From Rhizobium sp. CB3090 (GTDB lineage Bacteria; Pseudomonadota; Alphaproteobacteria; Rhizobiales; Rhizobiaceae): a stretch of DNA of 64,000 bases. Numbering within the stretch: the first letter of the stretch is position 1; each line of letters opens with the position of its first letter. Positions 1-15,211 of this stretch are shown here, piece after piece. The stretch is taken from assembly GCF_029714285.1 (NCBI RefSeq), contig NZ_CP121662.1, forward strand, positions 2,046,001-2,110,000, given 5' to 3'. The notes beneath the pieces are model-generated. The model saw nothing but the letters and a program-made list of their open reading frames with translations. It ran no database searches and was not told the origin of the DNA. The translations under genes and the position numbers were made by a program.

Positions 1-151
1 CAAAGGAAACGACGCAGCGATTGCTTTCGTTGCTTAATCAGTTGCTATCCAAGAGAGCCAAGTGGACGTTTCCAATCGATTGGGTGCCCAGCTCCACTTG
101 TGCGCGCAATATCTTTCCCCTAAGACTGTTTCAACAACCTTTGGGGGCAAC
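1..151. other. Window edge and leader of first gene
   Basis: No gene is supported here. A longer reading of the first gene from a GTG at 62 is open, but its first 30 codons do not look like a protein start. The ATG at 152 begins a typical signal peptide. Confidence 0.4.
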
Positions 152-538
152 ATGCGTCGATTAATTTTCGCGACTTTCATGTGCACGATTAGCAGCATTG
201 CTGTCGCTGGCGACGACCAAAAACTCGAAGAACTAACGACCGCGTTTATTAATGCCAGTTACGCCAGCCTGAGTGCCGCCTATTTCTGCCGGGATGGCAT
301 CGGCGTTGATTCATATCTAAAGGTGCGCAAGGCAGTTGAAGCGGGATTGGTCAATATAACCGGAAACGCCGACGTTGCGCGCAAGATTATGGATGAATGG
401 GAAAAAAAGATGGCGCGCGATCCACTTTACAAGAATCCCAAGGTCACAGTTGATAAGTGCAGTGATTTACTGATGGAGCGATATCACAAACTGGATGCGG
501 CTTTCGACGCTATTGCAAATAGACAAAATACACACTGA
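152..538 (+). CDS. Small secreted protein of unknown function
   Basis: A 128-residue protein. Residues 1-19 form a signal peptide (MRRLIF, a hydrophobic core, then SIAVAG), so it should be exported to the periplasm. The mature part is helical and charged, with two cysteines (in YFCRDG and in DKCSDL) that could form a disulfide. I chose the ATG at 152 over the upstream GTG at 62 because only the shorter form begins with a signal peptide. It is the first of three plus-strand genes for exported or membrane-anchored proteins that converge on the end of the prophage. I do not recognise the family. A small Rap1a-like periplasmic or immunity-type fold is possible, but this is only an impression. Confidence 0.6.
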   Translation: MRRLIFATFMCTISSIAVAGDDQKLEELTTAFINASYASLSAAYFCRDGIGVDSYLKVRKAVEAGLVNITGNADVARKIMDEWEKKMARDPLYKNPKVTVDKCSDLLMERYHKLDAAFDAIANRQNTH

Positions 539-667
539 CACTTTGATGAACGCCTGAAAGTACAATAGTTATGCGGTTCTCAAGCTCGCAGAACTTGCAA
601 CATCTGTCACTGGCATACCTTTTCAAAACATGCGAAATACAACCCTGCGCTTTGAATGGGGGATTTC

Positions 668-1111
668 GTGATTAGATTGTGGAGATTGGTCAGCGTAGCT
701 TTTTTGCTGCCAGCCATTGGCGGCTGCAATTTTTCTGAATCGAAACTGGTGACCGTGTGCGAAGAAGTTTTGAAATTGAGACTTTTGGCGCCGTCGGGAT
801 ACAAGCGGATCGAAATCAAAGAATCCGAAGAACCTCTCAGCCGCGCTGACTACAAACGCTATCTGGCCAGGGACGAATATGGGCCGCTCATCCAGGGAGC
901 CATGATGAAGGATTTTGACCGAGGCCGTGTAAAACCTCGCATGTTTGAGGTTCTTATAACTTACGATGCTCCTAACGCCTATGGCACACCAATTCGCGGC
1001 ACCACCATATGTCAGTATCCAACTGACAATGAAAACACCTCCAGAGCGGACCGTCTCTACGTAATGGTTGACGGCAAAACGAACGCGGAGTGGTTAGAGA
1101 CGCAGCGCTAA
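668..1111 (+). CDS. Putative lipoprotein of unknown function
   Basis: A 147-residue protein whose N-terminus is a lipoprotein signal: Arg-containing n-region, hydrophobic stretch and lipobox AIGGC, so the mature protein should be lipid-anchored at Cys. An ATG 12 bases upstream (656) is also open, but the GTG at 668 has a GGGGGA ribosome site at good distance. The region from VCEEVLKLRL to the C-terminus matches the C-terminal half of the gene at 1263-2069: CE..LK.RL, an aromatic-rich middle, FD.G...P..F.V, then a late Cys-Tyr pair. The two are therefore paralogous or share a domain. No function is known to me. The domain may be exported in both cases. Confidence 0.6.
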   Translation: MIRLWRLVSVAFLLPAIGGCNFSESKLVTVCEEVLKLRLLAPSGYKRIEIKESEEPLSRADYKRYLARDEYGPLIQGAMMKDFDRGRVKPRMFEVLITYDAPNAYGTPIRGTTICQYPTDNENTSRADRLYVMVDGKTNAEWLETQR

Positions 1112-1262
1112 GAAAAGCGGGCGACTATGAGGTTTCAGCTACTTCTGACTGCATTCTCCCTGTGCCCCCTATACGGGATGAGTTCGCGACACATTCAGAC
1201 GGCCGTTCAGCTGAAGTAACGGCATCCGCATTGGCACTCCTTAAAATTTCTGAGAGACACTT

Positions 1263-2069
1263 ATGGACGTTTGGCTAAAGGCTTTGATCGCAACTGCATG
1301 CATAGTGGTAATCGCGAGCGCCGCGATTGTCGGCGGTGTTGTTGGCTGGCAATACTACCAGGCATGGCAGGAGGAGAAGGCTGCCAAGCTTGCCGAACGA
1401 AAATTCAAATGCACTGATGCATTGAGAGAAGAAGTCCGTGCGAAAGCAGGAGAAAAGACGTACGGTTCACTAGCTCTCATGGTTGCTGAAGCAGATAGTT
1501 GCCGAGCGGAGTTTCCTGATATTCGAGCCTCGTTCTGCTTTCGTCTCTGGAAAGACGTAAAGCTATTCAATGCGGGGGCAACTACCGACTTTTTCGACAA
1601 AATGACCTCTGCGGCGGTCAAAGAGGTTGACGCGTGCAACCAAGAATTTGGCTACGCTGAGCCAGAAAAGAAGCCTCTTCCTCAAAACACGAGTGAGTGG
1701 AAAGCGGCCACACCATCAAAACCTGCGGCGGCGTTAACAATGGTGGCAACCTGTGAAGCCGCACTGAAATTCCGCCTTGGTTCATCAGCTACCTACACGC
1801 AAGTTGATCATTCCAAAGCCCAATTTCCAATGGGTCGCAGTTCGTTCGCAAGCTACCTTGAAAAGACCGACGACAGCCCTTCGATGCGGGAAGAGAAGCT
1901 GAAGCAATTCGATCAAGGCGTTCTGAGACCGGTAGAGTTTTATGTCTACTTGAGCACAAACGCCATCGTCCAAAGCCGATATCAGCGGATTGAAGCGGCC
2001 TGCAGCTACGTCGGCATACAAGGTACTGACGCCGGCGCTGCCGTAGACAATGTGAGACTTACCTACTGA
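1263..2069 (+). CDS. Membrane-anchored two-domain protein, unknown
   Basis: A 268-residue protein. Residues 6-32 form one transmembrane helix (LIATACIVVIASAAIVGG), followed by a short charged coil (WQEEKAAKLAERK). The rest, about 235 residues, is probably periplasmic. Residues about 40-130 are Cys-containing and helical. Residues from about 160 (TCEAALKFRL) to the end repeat the domain of the lipoprotein at 668-1111. The ATG at 1263 has a GAGAGA ribosome site. The gene ends 20 bases before the stop codon of the last prophage gene on the other strand, so the chromosome/prophage junction lies in 2070-2088. Function unknown. Confidence 0.6.
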   Translation: MDVWLKALIATACIVVIASAAIVGGVVGWQYYQAWQEEKAAKLAERKFKCTDALREEVRAKAGEKTYGSLALMVAEADSCRAEFPDIRASFCFRLWKDVKLFNAGATTDFFDKMTSAAVKEVDACNQEFGYAEPEKKPLPQNTSEWKAATPSKPAAALTMVATCEAALKFRLGSSATYTQVDHSKAQFPMGRSSFASYLEKTDDSPSMREEKLKQFDQGVLRPVEFYVYLSTNAIVQSRYQRIEAACSYVGIQGTDAGAAVDNVRLTY

Positions 2070-2088: not shown

Positions 2089-2819
2089 CTAGCCCGCCTC
2101 CCGCGCCCTGATCGCCTCCGTCTCCTCCTCCACCGCCTGGCAATAGCGCCCATCCATCGCCTTTAGCACGACGATGTCCTCGCGGCGCAGTAGGTTGCCG
2201 GTCAGCTGCAGCCAGGCGAGCATTTCTTGGTGGGAGAGCGGCGCCGGGCCGGAAAAGCCGGGGGCCTGCGCCGAACGCAGGTCCCAGAACCAGTCCCAGA
2301 GCGCATGGCCGGCCTCCGGCACCTCGGCCTCCGGGCTGACAAGCTCGAAGGCCTCGTTGCGTTCCCGCCGGGTCTCGCCGTTTGCATCGCGCACGCAATC
2401 ATAGCGTGCGACGATCCTTACGGCTTCTGAAAGCCCTTCGGCAAGCTCTTCATAAAATTTGCGCGGTCCTCCGAGGCGCCGGCCACCTGATCGTAGATCC
2501 AGCCGGCTTCCTCGACGACTTCGCGGGCCTTCTCGAAGGAGAGCACCGGCTGCTCGCCCTTCCACTGCTGCTCGCCCCAGCTCCAGGAGGCGATGGCGGC
2601 GGCCGCCTTATCGAGATATTCGGCCTCGACCTTGCTGGTGGTCAGCTTCTTCTTGCGGCTGGCGAGGAAGCGGTCGCTATGCTGGCGAACGATCTTCTTC
2701 ACCTCGTTGCTCTCGGCCGAGCGGATCATGAAGGAGATGCCGAGCGGCTCCTCGGTGGCCGGATGCAGGAGCTGCAGCTCGAAGAGATCTTCGGAATTGA
2801 CGAGACTGGAGATATCCAA
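2089..2819 (-). CDS. Tail assembly chaperone GT (via -1 frameshift)
   Basis: Predicted 243-residue frameshift product. Reading starts at 2819 as the short chaperone, slips back one base at the heptamer at 2454-2460, and continues from RANF into YEELAEGLSE down to the stop at 2089. The downstream frame has no convincing start of its own, yet reads as a normal protein (EAVRIVARYDCV, LAWLQLTGNLLRR). In long-tailed phages the G/GT pair keeps the tape measure protein soluble and recruits tail tube subunits, and GT is made by exactly this kind of slip. The next gene should be the tape measure, but the phage sequence stops here. Confidence 0.75.
2418..2819 (-). CDS. Tail assembly chaperone, short form (G-like)
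   Basis: A 133-residue protein starting at a TTG (2819); an in-frame stop lies a few codons upstream and no ATG is near. It reads as a phage tail assembly chaperone: acidic N-terminus, an LHP motif, then a Lys-rich helical centre (SRKKKLTTSKVEAEYLDKAA), ending KGFQKP. It lies directly after the tail tube gene, the standard position of this protein in siphophages. Its last 14 codons overlap the extension frame, and the slippery heptamer lies at codons 120-122. The family call rests on position, size and the frameshift more than on a strong motif. Confidence 0.7.
   Translation of the reverse strand: MDISSLVNSEDLFELQLLHPATEEPLGISFMIRSAESNEVKKIVRQHSDRFLASRKKKLTTSKVEAEYLDKAAAAIASWSWGEQQWKGEQPVLSFEKAREVVEEAGWIYDQVAGASEDRANFMKSLPKGFQKP
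2454..2460 (-). promoter_or_regulatory. Canonical -1 slippery heptamer A AAT TTT
   Basis: On the minus strand the bases read A AAT TTT in the chaperone frame, followed by ATG. This fits the X XXY YYZ rule for -1 ribosomal frameshifting (X=A, Y=T, Z=T). The new frame stays open for 121 more codons, while the zero frame stops 12 codons after the heptamer. Confidence 0.8.
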
Positions 2820-2899: not shown

Positions 2900-3385
2900 T
2901 TACGGCGTGGTGACGGGGTCGACGCGGATCGGCAGCTGGTTGAGGCCGATCTTGAACTTCTCCAGATCGAAATCGTCGGAGCCGCCGCCGGGATAGAGCG
3001 GGCCGGAAACGACGCCGCGCGAATAGAACACCGTGTTGGTCTTGCCCTGCGGCGCGTCGTTGCGCTCGACCTTGATCGCCATGTTGTTGACGTTAAGCGG
3101 ATCGCCGAAAACGCGCAGGATGTCCTGACCCGGATCGTCGGCGATGGAGGCAACTTCGAGCTCCGGATCGCCGGCGTTGGAAACGCCCTTTTGCTTCTGC
3201 TGCACCGGTTCATCCAGCGTATCGTAGTGGTTGATGGTGGAGTCCGAGCCGAAATCGCCGACCTTGCCGACCTTGCCGACCTGCACCCAGGTCAGCGCGG
3301 CATAGGCGCTGGCCGTCAGGTCGGTATTCTGGGGCGTCTCGCATACGTAGACTTTCGAGCCCTTCTTCGTGCTTTTGTTCGCCAT
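2900..3385 (-). CDS. Phage major tail tube protein
   Basis: A 161-residue protein that starts MANKSTKKGSKVYV and is rich in beta strands and Gly/Asp turns (VGKVGDFGSDSTINHYDTLDEP), with the look of siphophage tube subunits, which stack as hexamers around the tape measure. It lies between the tail terminator gene (ends at 3389, three bases away) and the tail assembly chaperone, the usual place for the tube gene. Full length appears intact. I see no Ig-like C-terminal extension. The call rests on gene order and fold impression. No catalytic residues are expected. Confidence 0.7.
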   Translation of the reverse strand: MANKSTKKGSKVYVCETPQNTDLTASAYAALTWVQVGKVGKVGDFGSDSTINHYDTLDEPVQQKQKGVSNAGDPELEVASIADDPGQDILRVFGDPLNVNNMAIKVERNDAPQGKTNTVFYSRGVVSGPLYPGGGSDDFDLEKFKIGLNQLPIRVDPVTTP

Positions 3386-4498: not shown

Positions 4499-4854
4499 CG
4501 CCGCACCTGCAGCTGCCAAAAGACAACCGTCCCGCCCGGCGACAGCGGCTGGATATCGATGATCGCATGCTCGATGCCGCCGATCAGCACCTTGTCGGCC
4601 AATGTCGGCGTGATCGACAGTCCCTCGATCGAGAGATAGACCATGCGATCCCCGCGCTGGATCAGCGTATCGGCGATATACGACTGACTCTGATCGAGAT
4701 CGACAAGCGAGCAGGCAAAGTCCTCGCTCGTCTGCACCGGATCATAGTCCGGCCCCGTATTCGTGATGCGACGCAGACTGCCCTTCTGGCCGAACTTGGC
4801 GATCAGCCGCGCGGCAGTCGCGCGGGTTTTGGCATAGTCGAAAGCGGCCATCAC
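4495..4854 (-). CDS. Phage head closure/neck protein
   Basis: A 119-residue protein: basic N-terminal helix (YAKTRATAARLIAKFGQKGSLRR), then beta strands (SCSL-type centre, GDRMVYLSIEG, DKVLIGGIEHAIIDIQPLSPGGTVVFWQLQVRR). This is the fold outline of head-closure proteins, small barrels that plug the head after packaging. It overlaps the upstream adaptor gene by four bases (ATGA) and the downstream small gene by the same arrangement, so the three are probably translated together. Identification is by order and architecture. Confidence 0.6.
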   Translation of the reverse strand: MMAAFDYAKTRATAARLIAKFGQKGSLRRITNTGPDYDPVQTSEDFACSLVDLDQSQSYIADTLIQRGDRMVYLSIEGLSITPTLADKVLIGGIEHAIIDIQPLSPGGTVVFWQLQVRR

Positions 4855-5348
4855 ACCACCAGGATGCCCGGCAGAACCGGACGCAAGAAGGGATAGAGCA
4901 AACCGTCAAGAATGGTCATGACTGGCCTTGCCGAGGAAATGATGTCGGCGGGCGAACCGGCCGCAACATATTCCGTCTCCAGCGGCCCGACCTTTTCGCG
5001 TTTGACGGTCTGCGCTGCAGTGACCACTGGGTTCAGGCTGCCGGGTTCGGCAAGCTCGACAGCGGCCGCCTCATAGGCAGCGTAAGTAATCGGCAATGGC
5101 ACGATATCTTCGGGAATGGCCTCGCCATTGGCCGTCATGGCCGCCTTGCGCGGCCACGACAGAGCCTGGTCATAACCACCGGCGCGAAAGCCGGGAAAAC
5201 GCGGCTCGTACAAGCCGTCTACGACCTGAGAGCCGCGTACCAGGGCTGCCGTGCGCTCATCTTCTCCGGCGGCCCCCCAGGCTGCGCTGCCCCGATCGAC
5301 AAAATAGGTATTGGCAGCATCGAGCGTGCCATAGAAAGCTGCGGACAT
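4851..5348 (-). CDS. Phage head-tail adaptor, DnaT-like family
   Basis: A 165-residue protein beginning MSAAFYGTLDAANTYFVDRG. The pattern of early LDAANTYF, then W...AAL.RG, then a central WPR motif (LSWPRKAAM) and P..I..A..EAA is the usual layout of the DnaT-like adaptor proteins that bind under the portal in siphophages. I chose the ATG at 5348 rather than an open start at 5411, because the upstream part (SLSPFGGERAPPP) does not look structured and the family begins near MSAA. It follows the major capsid gene and overlaps the closure gene by four bases. Confidence 0.65.
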   Translation of the reverse strand: MSAAFYGTLDAANTYFVDRGSAAWGAAGEDERTAALVRGSQVVDGLYEPRFPGFRAGGYDQALSWPRKAAMTANGEAIPEDIVPLPITYAAYEAAAVELAEPGSLNPVVTAAQTVKREKVGPLETEYVAAGSPADIISSARPVMTILDGLLYPFLRPVLPGILVV

Positions 5349-14419: not shown

Positions 14420-15211
14420 ATGCAGAAATCCATGGGCGAACGACTGAAGGCGGCGCGCGAAGCCGCAAATTATCCCTCGGCGACAAAGGCGGCGGAGGCG
14501 CTTGGCATCGGCTTATCCACCTACCGAGCGCACGAAAACGGCCAGAACGAATTCGGCCCCGAGATTGCCGACCGCTATGCCAAGAAGTTCGGCACCACAG
14601 CCGGCTATCTCCTGACCGGTGAAGGGCCAAGGAAAGTGGAGCGGCCGGGGCCGCGTATGGTGGTCACCTCCTTCGATCCCGATGAACAATACAATGAAGG
14701 GTTTGCCGAAGGTGGCGAGGACTTCAGCTACAGTCGGGAACATTGGCAACCGAAGATCGAAGGCGCGACGCCGGAGGTGGACGTCAAACTCGGCGCCGGC
14801 AGCGGCATTGTCGGCGAAGTCATCAACCTGCCTGTTGGAGCAGGCAATGTCGCCGGCCATAAGATCGTCGCGGAATGGCTGATTCCTTCGGGCTATTTGC
14901 GCAACGAGGCAAAGGCATCGCCGAACCACACCATCATCATGGAAGTGATCGGTGATTCCATGCAGCCCACCTACATGCCCGGCGACCGCGTCGTCGTCGA
15001 TCTCTCACAGAACCAGATGGCGACCGATACGGTCTATGCCATCAGCGACGGCTATTCAGAGCCACAGATCAAGCGCCTTCAGCGTGTTCCCTTCACCCAG
15101 CCCAGTCAGGTGAAGATCATTTCCGACAATCCCGCGCTTGAAACCTTCACAGTGGAGTTGGCGCGGCTGACGATCATCGGGCGCATCTGCGGGCATATCG
15201 CAAGAAAATAA
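14420..15211 (+). CDS. Phage repressor, Xre HTH plus S24 peptidase (LexA/CI-like)
   Basis: A 263-residue regulator. Residues 4-60 form a helix-turn-helix of Xre type (RLKAAREAANYPSATKAAEALGIGLSTYRAHENG). Residues about 145-255 form the LexA/CI S24 domain with nucleophile Ser180 in GDSMQPTYMPGD and the expected general base Lys218 in PQIKRLQR. Such proteins bind operators as dimers, hold phage lytic genes silent and cleave themselves after RecA activation. The gene lies between two pairs of similar palindromes, like an immunity region, and should silence both the minus-strand and plus-strand units. Self-cleavage residues are intact, so it may still be SOS responsive. Confidence 0.85.
   Translation: MQKSMGERLKAAREAANYPSATKAAEALGIGLSTYRAHENGQNEFGPEIADRYAKKFGTTAGYLLTGEGPRKVERPGPRMVVTSFDPDEQYNEGFAEGGEDFSYSREHWQPKIEGATPEVDVKLGAGSGIVGEVINLPVGAGNVAGHKIVAEWLIPSGYLRNEAKASPNHTIIMEVIGDSMQPTYMPGDRVVVDLSQNQMATDTVYAISDGYSEPQIKRLQRVPFTQPSQVKIISDNPALETFTVELARLTIIGRICGHIARK

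Follow-up and report, generated by a model that had tools for sequence, protein, structure and literature searches.

Tail assembly chaperones of the lambda gpG/gpGT kind were reportedly treated by Xu, Hendrix and Duda in 2004. Lambda gpG/gpGT and related tail assembly chaperones are also the closest known counterparts of the locus described here (PMC5009743, PMC10885494). Ltp of phage TP-J34 and gp15 of HK97 block DNA entry, with the target or escape mapping to the gene for the tape measure protein (TMP) or to the tail tube and TMP genes; Ltp is a lipoprotein encoded in the lysogeny module (PMC10883804, PMC3952083). Tab, a moron product of 83 residues, acts by blocking assembly, and it maps to the C-terminal region of TMP (PMC10884400).

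We analysed a 64,000-nucleotide stretch of Rhizobium sp. CB3090 (contig NZ_CP121662.1, positions 2,046,001 to 2,110,000), hereafter the window, in which a first-pass annotation had proposed a G/GT-type −1 frameshift in a prophage tail assembly chaperone (TAC). That proposal is strongly supported by protein families, by the invariance of the slip site, by a switch of reading frame in the pattern of variation, and by relatives that lack a usable start. The elements concerned are as follows.

2418..2819, minus strand: zero-frame open reading frame, G-type TAC, 133 aa, TTG start
2454..2460, minus strand: −1 slippery heptamer A AAT TTT, read from the sequence
2089..2460, minus strand: −1 frame extension (T-type domain), 123 codons from the slip codon AAA, plus stop

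The minus strand reads AAATTTT at 2460-2454, phased GC[A AAT TTT] in the zero frame of the 2819-2418 reading frame, and is thus the in-phase −1 heptamer that had been reported. The stops were also as described: beyond the heptamer the zero frame has 11 sense codons followed by TAA at 2420-2418, and the −1 frame (AAA TTT TAT ...) runs for a further 121 codons to its stop at 2091-2089. The accompanying statement that the −1 frame lacks its own start held for the most part, in that no ATG or TTG start is present, but two GTG codons are. One lies 34 codons upstream, inside G, in the −1 frame reading frame 2089-2565, and the other at extension codon 23 (~2394), shortly 3' of the G stop; in a scan neither had a Shine-Dalgarno match. 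The genome carries a single copy of the extension.

The zero-frame product matches the tail assembly chaperone family phrog_313 (E 2e-12), with no Pfam match above cut-off. The extension matched PF23812 Phage_TAC_18 (E 4e-9, above cut-off) and phrog_20700 (E 3e-54). The overlapping frames sit between the genes for the major tail protein and TMP, with a 2.1-kb opposite-strand cassette intervening before the latter.

2900-3385, minus strand: major tail protein gene (phrog_158), directly before the TAC gene
14420-15211: CI-like repressor

Upstream of TAC, the same strand encodes the major tail protein, tail terminator, connector genes, major capsid, cement protein, protease, portal and terminase. 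Within the window, the reading frame 4854-5348 is named 'DnaT-like' in Pfam, but PHROGs and its position identify it as a head-tail adaptor.

The locus had also been placed at the edge of a broken prophage, and this did not hold, as tail, fibre and endolysin genes continue beyond the window past the cassette. On the chromosome to the left of the window are TMP (801 aa, PHROGs tape measure families), whose start lies ~2.1 kb beyond TAC across the cassette, a distal tail protein, a tail protein, a 1984-aa fibre and an endolysin. Window positions 1-2069, despite resembling host DNA, carry three plus-strand genes between TAC and TMP, and in relatives this slot is occupied by opposite-strand genes too. 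The element extends over ~2033600-2061200 of the chromosome (G000:C1), spans ~28 kb from endolysin to repressor, and holds structural, lysis and repressor genes. Searching the genome with Phage_integrase PF00589 gave nine matches, none near the element, the closest on that contig being 0.9 Mb away; no replication gene was recognised among the element reading frames scanned, a subset of all of them.

Within the genus, the extension was found at E 1e-40 or better in 25 of 148 genomes. In six genomes (G000, G395, G409, G425, G437 and G439) the distance from TAC to an orthologous nitronate monooxygenase gene (at least 82% identity) on the same strand is 13-17 kb. Five others (G337, G397, G402, G411 and G433) have this TAC but no monooxygenase ortholog above 37% identity, and G396, which also has this TAC, is in short contigs. 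Three genomes (G405, G420 and G431) carry a terminase relative (88-96%) with no TAC match, the first of them with its monooxygenase (69%) on another contig; in G414 the host gene is present (91%) but the element is absent. Because no tyrosine integrase gene is nearby and the element sits next to one and the same host gene in all six testable genomes, the element may be a domesticated phage-like particle.

To follow the slip site among relatives, we collected 72 TAC loci including that of the window, 42 from viral contigs and 30 from a search of the family in which 52 of 394 genomes had a match, the places not made into loci being mostly the weaker ones. The match reaches the slip site in 64 loci, some of them near-identical, and stops short of it in eight, of which L065 and L067-L072 matched in the T domain only. 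At the slip site, 54 of the 64 loci (window included) have A AAT TTT, five have T TTT TTC and three T TTT TTT, the last two kinds belonging to eight diverged relatives in which the site is placed one codon later. A canonical in-phase X_XXY_YYZ site is thus present in the overlap of 62 of the 64 loci and absent from L050 and L052 (GAATTTT). L050 has a run of six T at the slip site and its extension in the +1 or −2 frame, which would reflect a shift of a different kind, decay of the copy or an error in sequencing. In L061 (G274), an apparent deletion has removed the slip site and left G and T domains in a single frame, and this locus is either a natural locked fusion or a decayed copy.

Selection was examined in 47 loci of more than 56% identity with enough upstream sequence, which reduced to 40 distinct sequences, the window among them. 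All 40 have GCAAATTTT, although GCA, AAT and TTT account for only 6.9%, 12.8% and 8.5% of their own codon families in the upstream zero-frame stretches, and in-phase X_XXY_YYZ motifs occur elsewhere upstream in the zero frame at only 2 of 4360 codon positions; for these reasons the conservation of the heptamer exceeds chance. Nucleotide diversity before the heptamer is maximal at frame-0 third positions (0.27-0.41) and falls to 0.00 within the nine bases. In the overlap (+7 to +41), diversity is 0.35 at frame −1 third positions vs 0.10 and 0.12 at the others (p 0.0007, site permutation). From the zero-frame stop to the internal GTG (+41 to +66) the values are 0.46 vs 0.21 and 0.13 (p 0.0014); as the sequences are related, these p values serve as guides. 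Codon-position variation in the 40 sequences shows protein-level constraint on codons 3-22 of the −1 frame. Third-position variation switches from frame 0 to frame −1 exactly at the heptamer, so that translation of the extension starts upstream of the zero-frame stop. In 21 of the 64 loci, moreover, the stretch of the −1 frame from its last upstream stop to codon 45 is free of ATG, GTG and TTG. The ribosomes that translate the extension therefore come from G, and by this evolutionary signature the extension is a continuation of G.

Several other explanations of the two frames were weighed against this one. The extension could be a separate protein begun at the internal GTG of codon 23 through translational coupling, with no frameshift, and indeed the position of this codon shortly after the G stop fits such coupling, as does the length of 6 of the 14 protein database matches to the extension, which are 101 aa long as expected from a start there. 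The codon-23 start is, however, confined to the close clade of the window (L001-L023 and L044) and lacks a Shine-Dalgarno match, the codons preceding it are constrained as protein, the 21 loci noted above offer no start codon as far as codon 45, and the invariant heptamer would be left unexplained; we consider a separate start highly improbable. We give equally little credence to a change of frame through slippage of RNA polymerase rather than the ribosome. Diverged relatives do have a run of at least six T at the site, but AAATTTT, present in the window and in 53 other loci, contains runs of just 3 A and 4 T, shorter than those usual in transcript slippage, and the 62 canonical sites preserve the phase needed for tandem slippage.

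Least probable of all, and contradicted by the conservation, is that the pair represents a decayed gene that a chance mutation has split into two frames in a dying prophage. The apparent prophage edge would agree with decay, as would the few elements of the group that look interrupted (L094, L129 and L191), but the same arrangement recurs in 54 of 64 loci with third-position bias in both frames, and the tail and lysis genes are present past the edge of the window. We conclude that the two overlapping frames are almost certainly one gene expressed by programmed −1 ribosomal frameshifting.

A candidate stimulator of the frameshift lies just before the slip site.

2467..2472, minus strand: GGAGGA, Shine-Dalgarno-like, 6 nt upstream of the heptamer

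GAGGA is kept in 39 of the 40 distinct sequences, and the Glu codon at GGAGGA has a synonymous diversity of 0.05 vs 0.15-0.47 in the seven other columns where Glu is commonest, although a Gln at −29 is equally low. From this pattern, GAGGA may act as an internal Shine-Dalgarno. A downstream stimulatory RNA structure is often, but not always, present at −1 frameshift sites, and folding of the RNA past the heptamer had been proposed as a check. Its outcome was divided: the window's own stretches fold well (z −2.7 for 70 nt and −4.7 for 100 nt), but no conserved structure was found 3' of the slip site, with consensus energies of −0.1 and −1.6 kcal/mol, a mean z of −0.11 for the 45 nt after the slip site over 51 sequences, and no support for the window's own fold from a consensus of 20 sequences.

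In the proposed mechanism, most ribosomes would translate G (133 aa) and terminate at 2418, and a minority would slip back one base at A AAT TTT to produce a fusion of G with the T-type domain of 123 residues. If lambda is a guide, G and GT would coat TMP and recruit the tail tube protein, their ratio setting proper assembly. We infer the ribosomal nature of the frame change, its rate and the chaperone role. The TAC frameshift very probably exists and is an ordinary, clear example of a mechanism known from textbooks; it would settle the annotation of Rhizobium prophages and phages in which the extension is called a separate or truncated protein.

Most of the interest lies instead in the neighbouring cassette, which had been taken for the prophage edge. 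It occupies window positions 62-2069, on the strand opposite to TAC, and a corresponding cassette occupies 15551-17956 of L073. Its genes in the window are listed below, with approximate starts, as reading frames were called mechanically.

152..538, plus strand: cassette gene c1, next to TMP; small protein with an apparent signal peptide, superfamily SF2 (listed reading frame begins at 62)
656..1111, plus strand: cassette gene c2; superfamily SF1, lipobox-like IGGC (read by eye)
1263..2069, plus strand: cassette gene c3; 268 aa, SF1 domain in the C-terminal part

The AlphaFold model of c1 is all-helical (mean pLDDT 84) and that of c2 has a mean pLDDT of 82; c3 matches Pfam TPR_21 below cut-off. 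Cassettes were compared among loci with a TAC of at least 85% identity. Ten of these had no TMP reading frame, mostly because the sequence ended; in L129, and in L191 of a later set, none was present in the 9-10 kb following TAC. Dropping nine exact duplicates left 23 loci; two were later added and the near-duplicates L085 and L116 removed, which again gave 23, the window included. Each of the 23 carries 1-5 opposite-strand genes, in 23 different family orders. The 76 cassette genes of 25 loci fall into SF1 (44), SF2 (22) and SF3 (9), with one outside these. By signal peptides and lipoboxes, read by eye in alignments, SF1 and SF2 proteins look secreted or lipid-anchored. They have no convincing Pfam match, the best being E 0.003 to DUF2780, matched by 2 of 18 SF2 members; PADLOC gave no match for eight cassette proteins, and the PDB yielded no sequence match below E 0.06 and weak structural matches only. 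SF3 occurs in nine loci, and its copy at L075:10582-11256, the sole one run against Pfam, matches an IS200-like (Y1) transposase; a gene of this family may drive cassette shuffling. In 19 distinct distant relatives (among L096-L108, L110-L114 and L139) the slot between TAC and TMP is likewise filled, by 491-4168 bp, and 17 of them have opposite-strand reading frames of at least 90 aa there.

The first ~440 residues of TMP are hypervariable: among nine representatives, identity per 40-residue block is 13-38%, and at most 18% from 81 to 400, vs 59-99% in the remainder. Across the 23 loci, TMP N-terminal similarity follows the similarity of the adjacent cassette gene (Mantel r 0.83, p 0.0002), unchanged after removal of backbone similarity, and shows no correlation with the TAC-proximal gene (r −0.01, p 0.54), with the backbone (r −0.04; short backbone sequence in L140, L175 and L179) or with the distal tail protein, which itself varies little (r 0.03). 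When whole TMP was used earlier, with near-duplicates still included, the adjacent gene gave r 0.73 (p 0.0002) but a rank correlation of only 0.27, and the TAC-proximal gene also showed weak correlation (r 0.11, p 0.048). Similar TMPs are thus strongly linked to the adjacent gene, without a graded relation across all TMPs. Adjacent genes are of the same family in 16 of 21 pairs within TMP groups vs 9 of 232 between groups, and TAC-proximal genes in 1 of 21 vs 11 of 232; in two single-gene loci the gene was counted as adjacent and TAC-proximal alike. Exceptions to the pairing are L131, whose gene is of a different family from that of its TMP group, L076, with a distant relative (40%), and L094, whose TMP is short and apparently truncated.

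Families paired with one TMP type also occur displaced. Of 41 non-adjacent SF1 and SF2 genes, 15 belong to families that are TMP-adjacent elsewhere, 12 of them now beside another TMP group, and 26 to families never found adjacent; in the window, c2, mid-cassette, represents the family that stands next to TMP in TMP group N1. The pairing could reflect physical linkage with recombination hot spots and no function, but the displaced copies favour function, without proving it. We tentatively propose a reading that we would sooner doubt than accept, suggested by sequence patterns: the TMP-adjacent gene, divergently oriented to TMP, would encode an envelope protein guarding its carrier against particles with a matching TMP N-terminal half, the other cassette genes would be orphan protectors from earlier TMP types, and gene and TMP half would be exchanged jointly as a specificity module. 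The element would perhaps be a domesticated phage-like killer particle with its specificity in TMP and not in the tail fibre. Hypothetically, an envelope location, if confirmed, would argue for a block to entry or for killing, and not for a block to assembly. If the TMP-paired genes work in self-exclusion, the eleven TMP groups would form a natural library, each with its candidate for a cognate protector, and the part of TMP that decides phage DNA entry, and its block in lysogens, would become directly testable by pair swaps.

Compared with lambda G/GT, in a comparison made without aligning the lambda sequences, the present locus differs in its slip site (A AAT TTT or T TTT TTT/C), in its families (phrog_313 and PF23812) and in the cassette that parts TAC from TMP. 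The isolated Rhizobium phages RHph_X2_24 and vB_RglS_P106B (Rigallicvirus) have a homologous extension (39% identity) overlapping a G-like reading frame, with T TTT TTC or T TTT TTT in the corresponding position. In both, however, the frameshift is unannotated and two hypothetical proteins are given, and no annotated opposite-strand gene lies between extension and TMP, where one has a homing endonuclease and the other a putative tail protein. Like Ltp, gp15 and Tab, the cassette genes are prophage-borne, and the one adjacent to TMP is statistically paired with the TMP N-terminal half. No relation to those proteins emerged, and they differ from the cassette, which is an array of 1-5 genes exchanged together with the TMP N-terminal half. 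In polymorphic toxin systems, orphan immunity arrays place an immunity gene beside the variable effector region and keep displaced copies elsewhere. The partner of the cassette would here be a phage TMP, and no toxin domain was seen, but the cassette resembles such arrays in having an immunity-like gene beside a variable region together with displaced copies.
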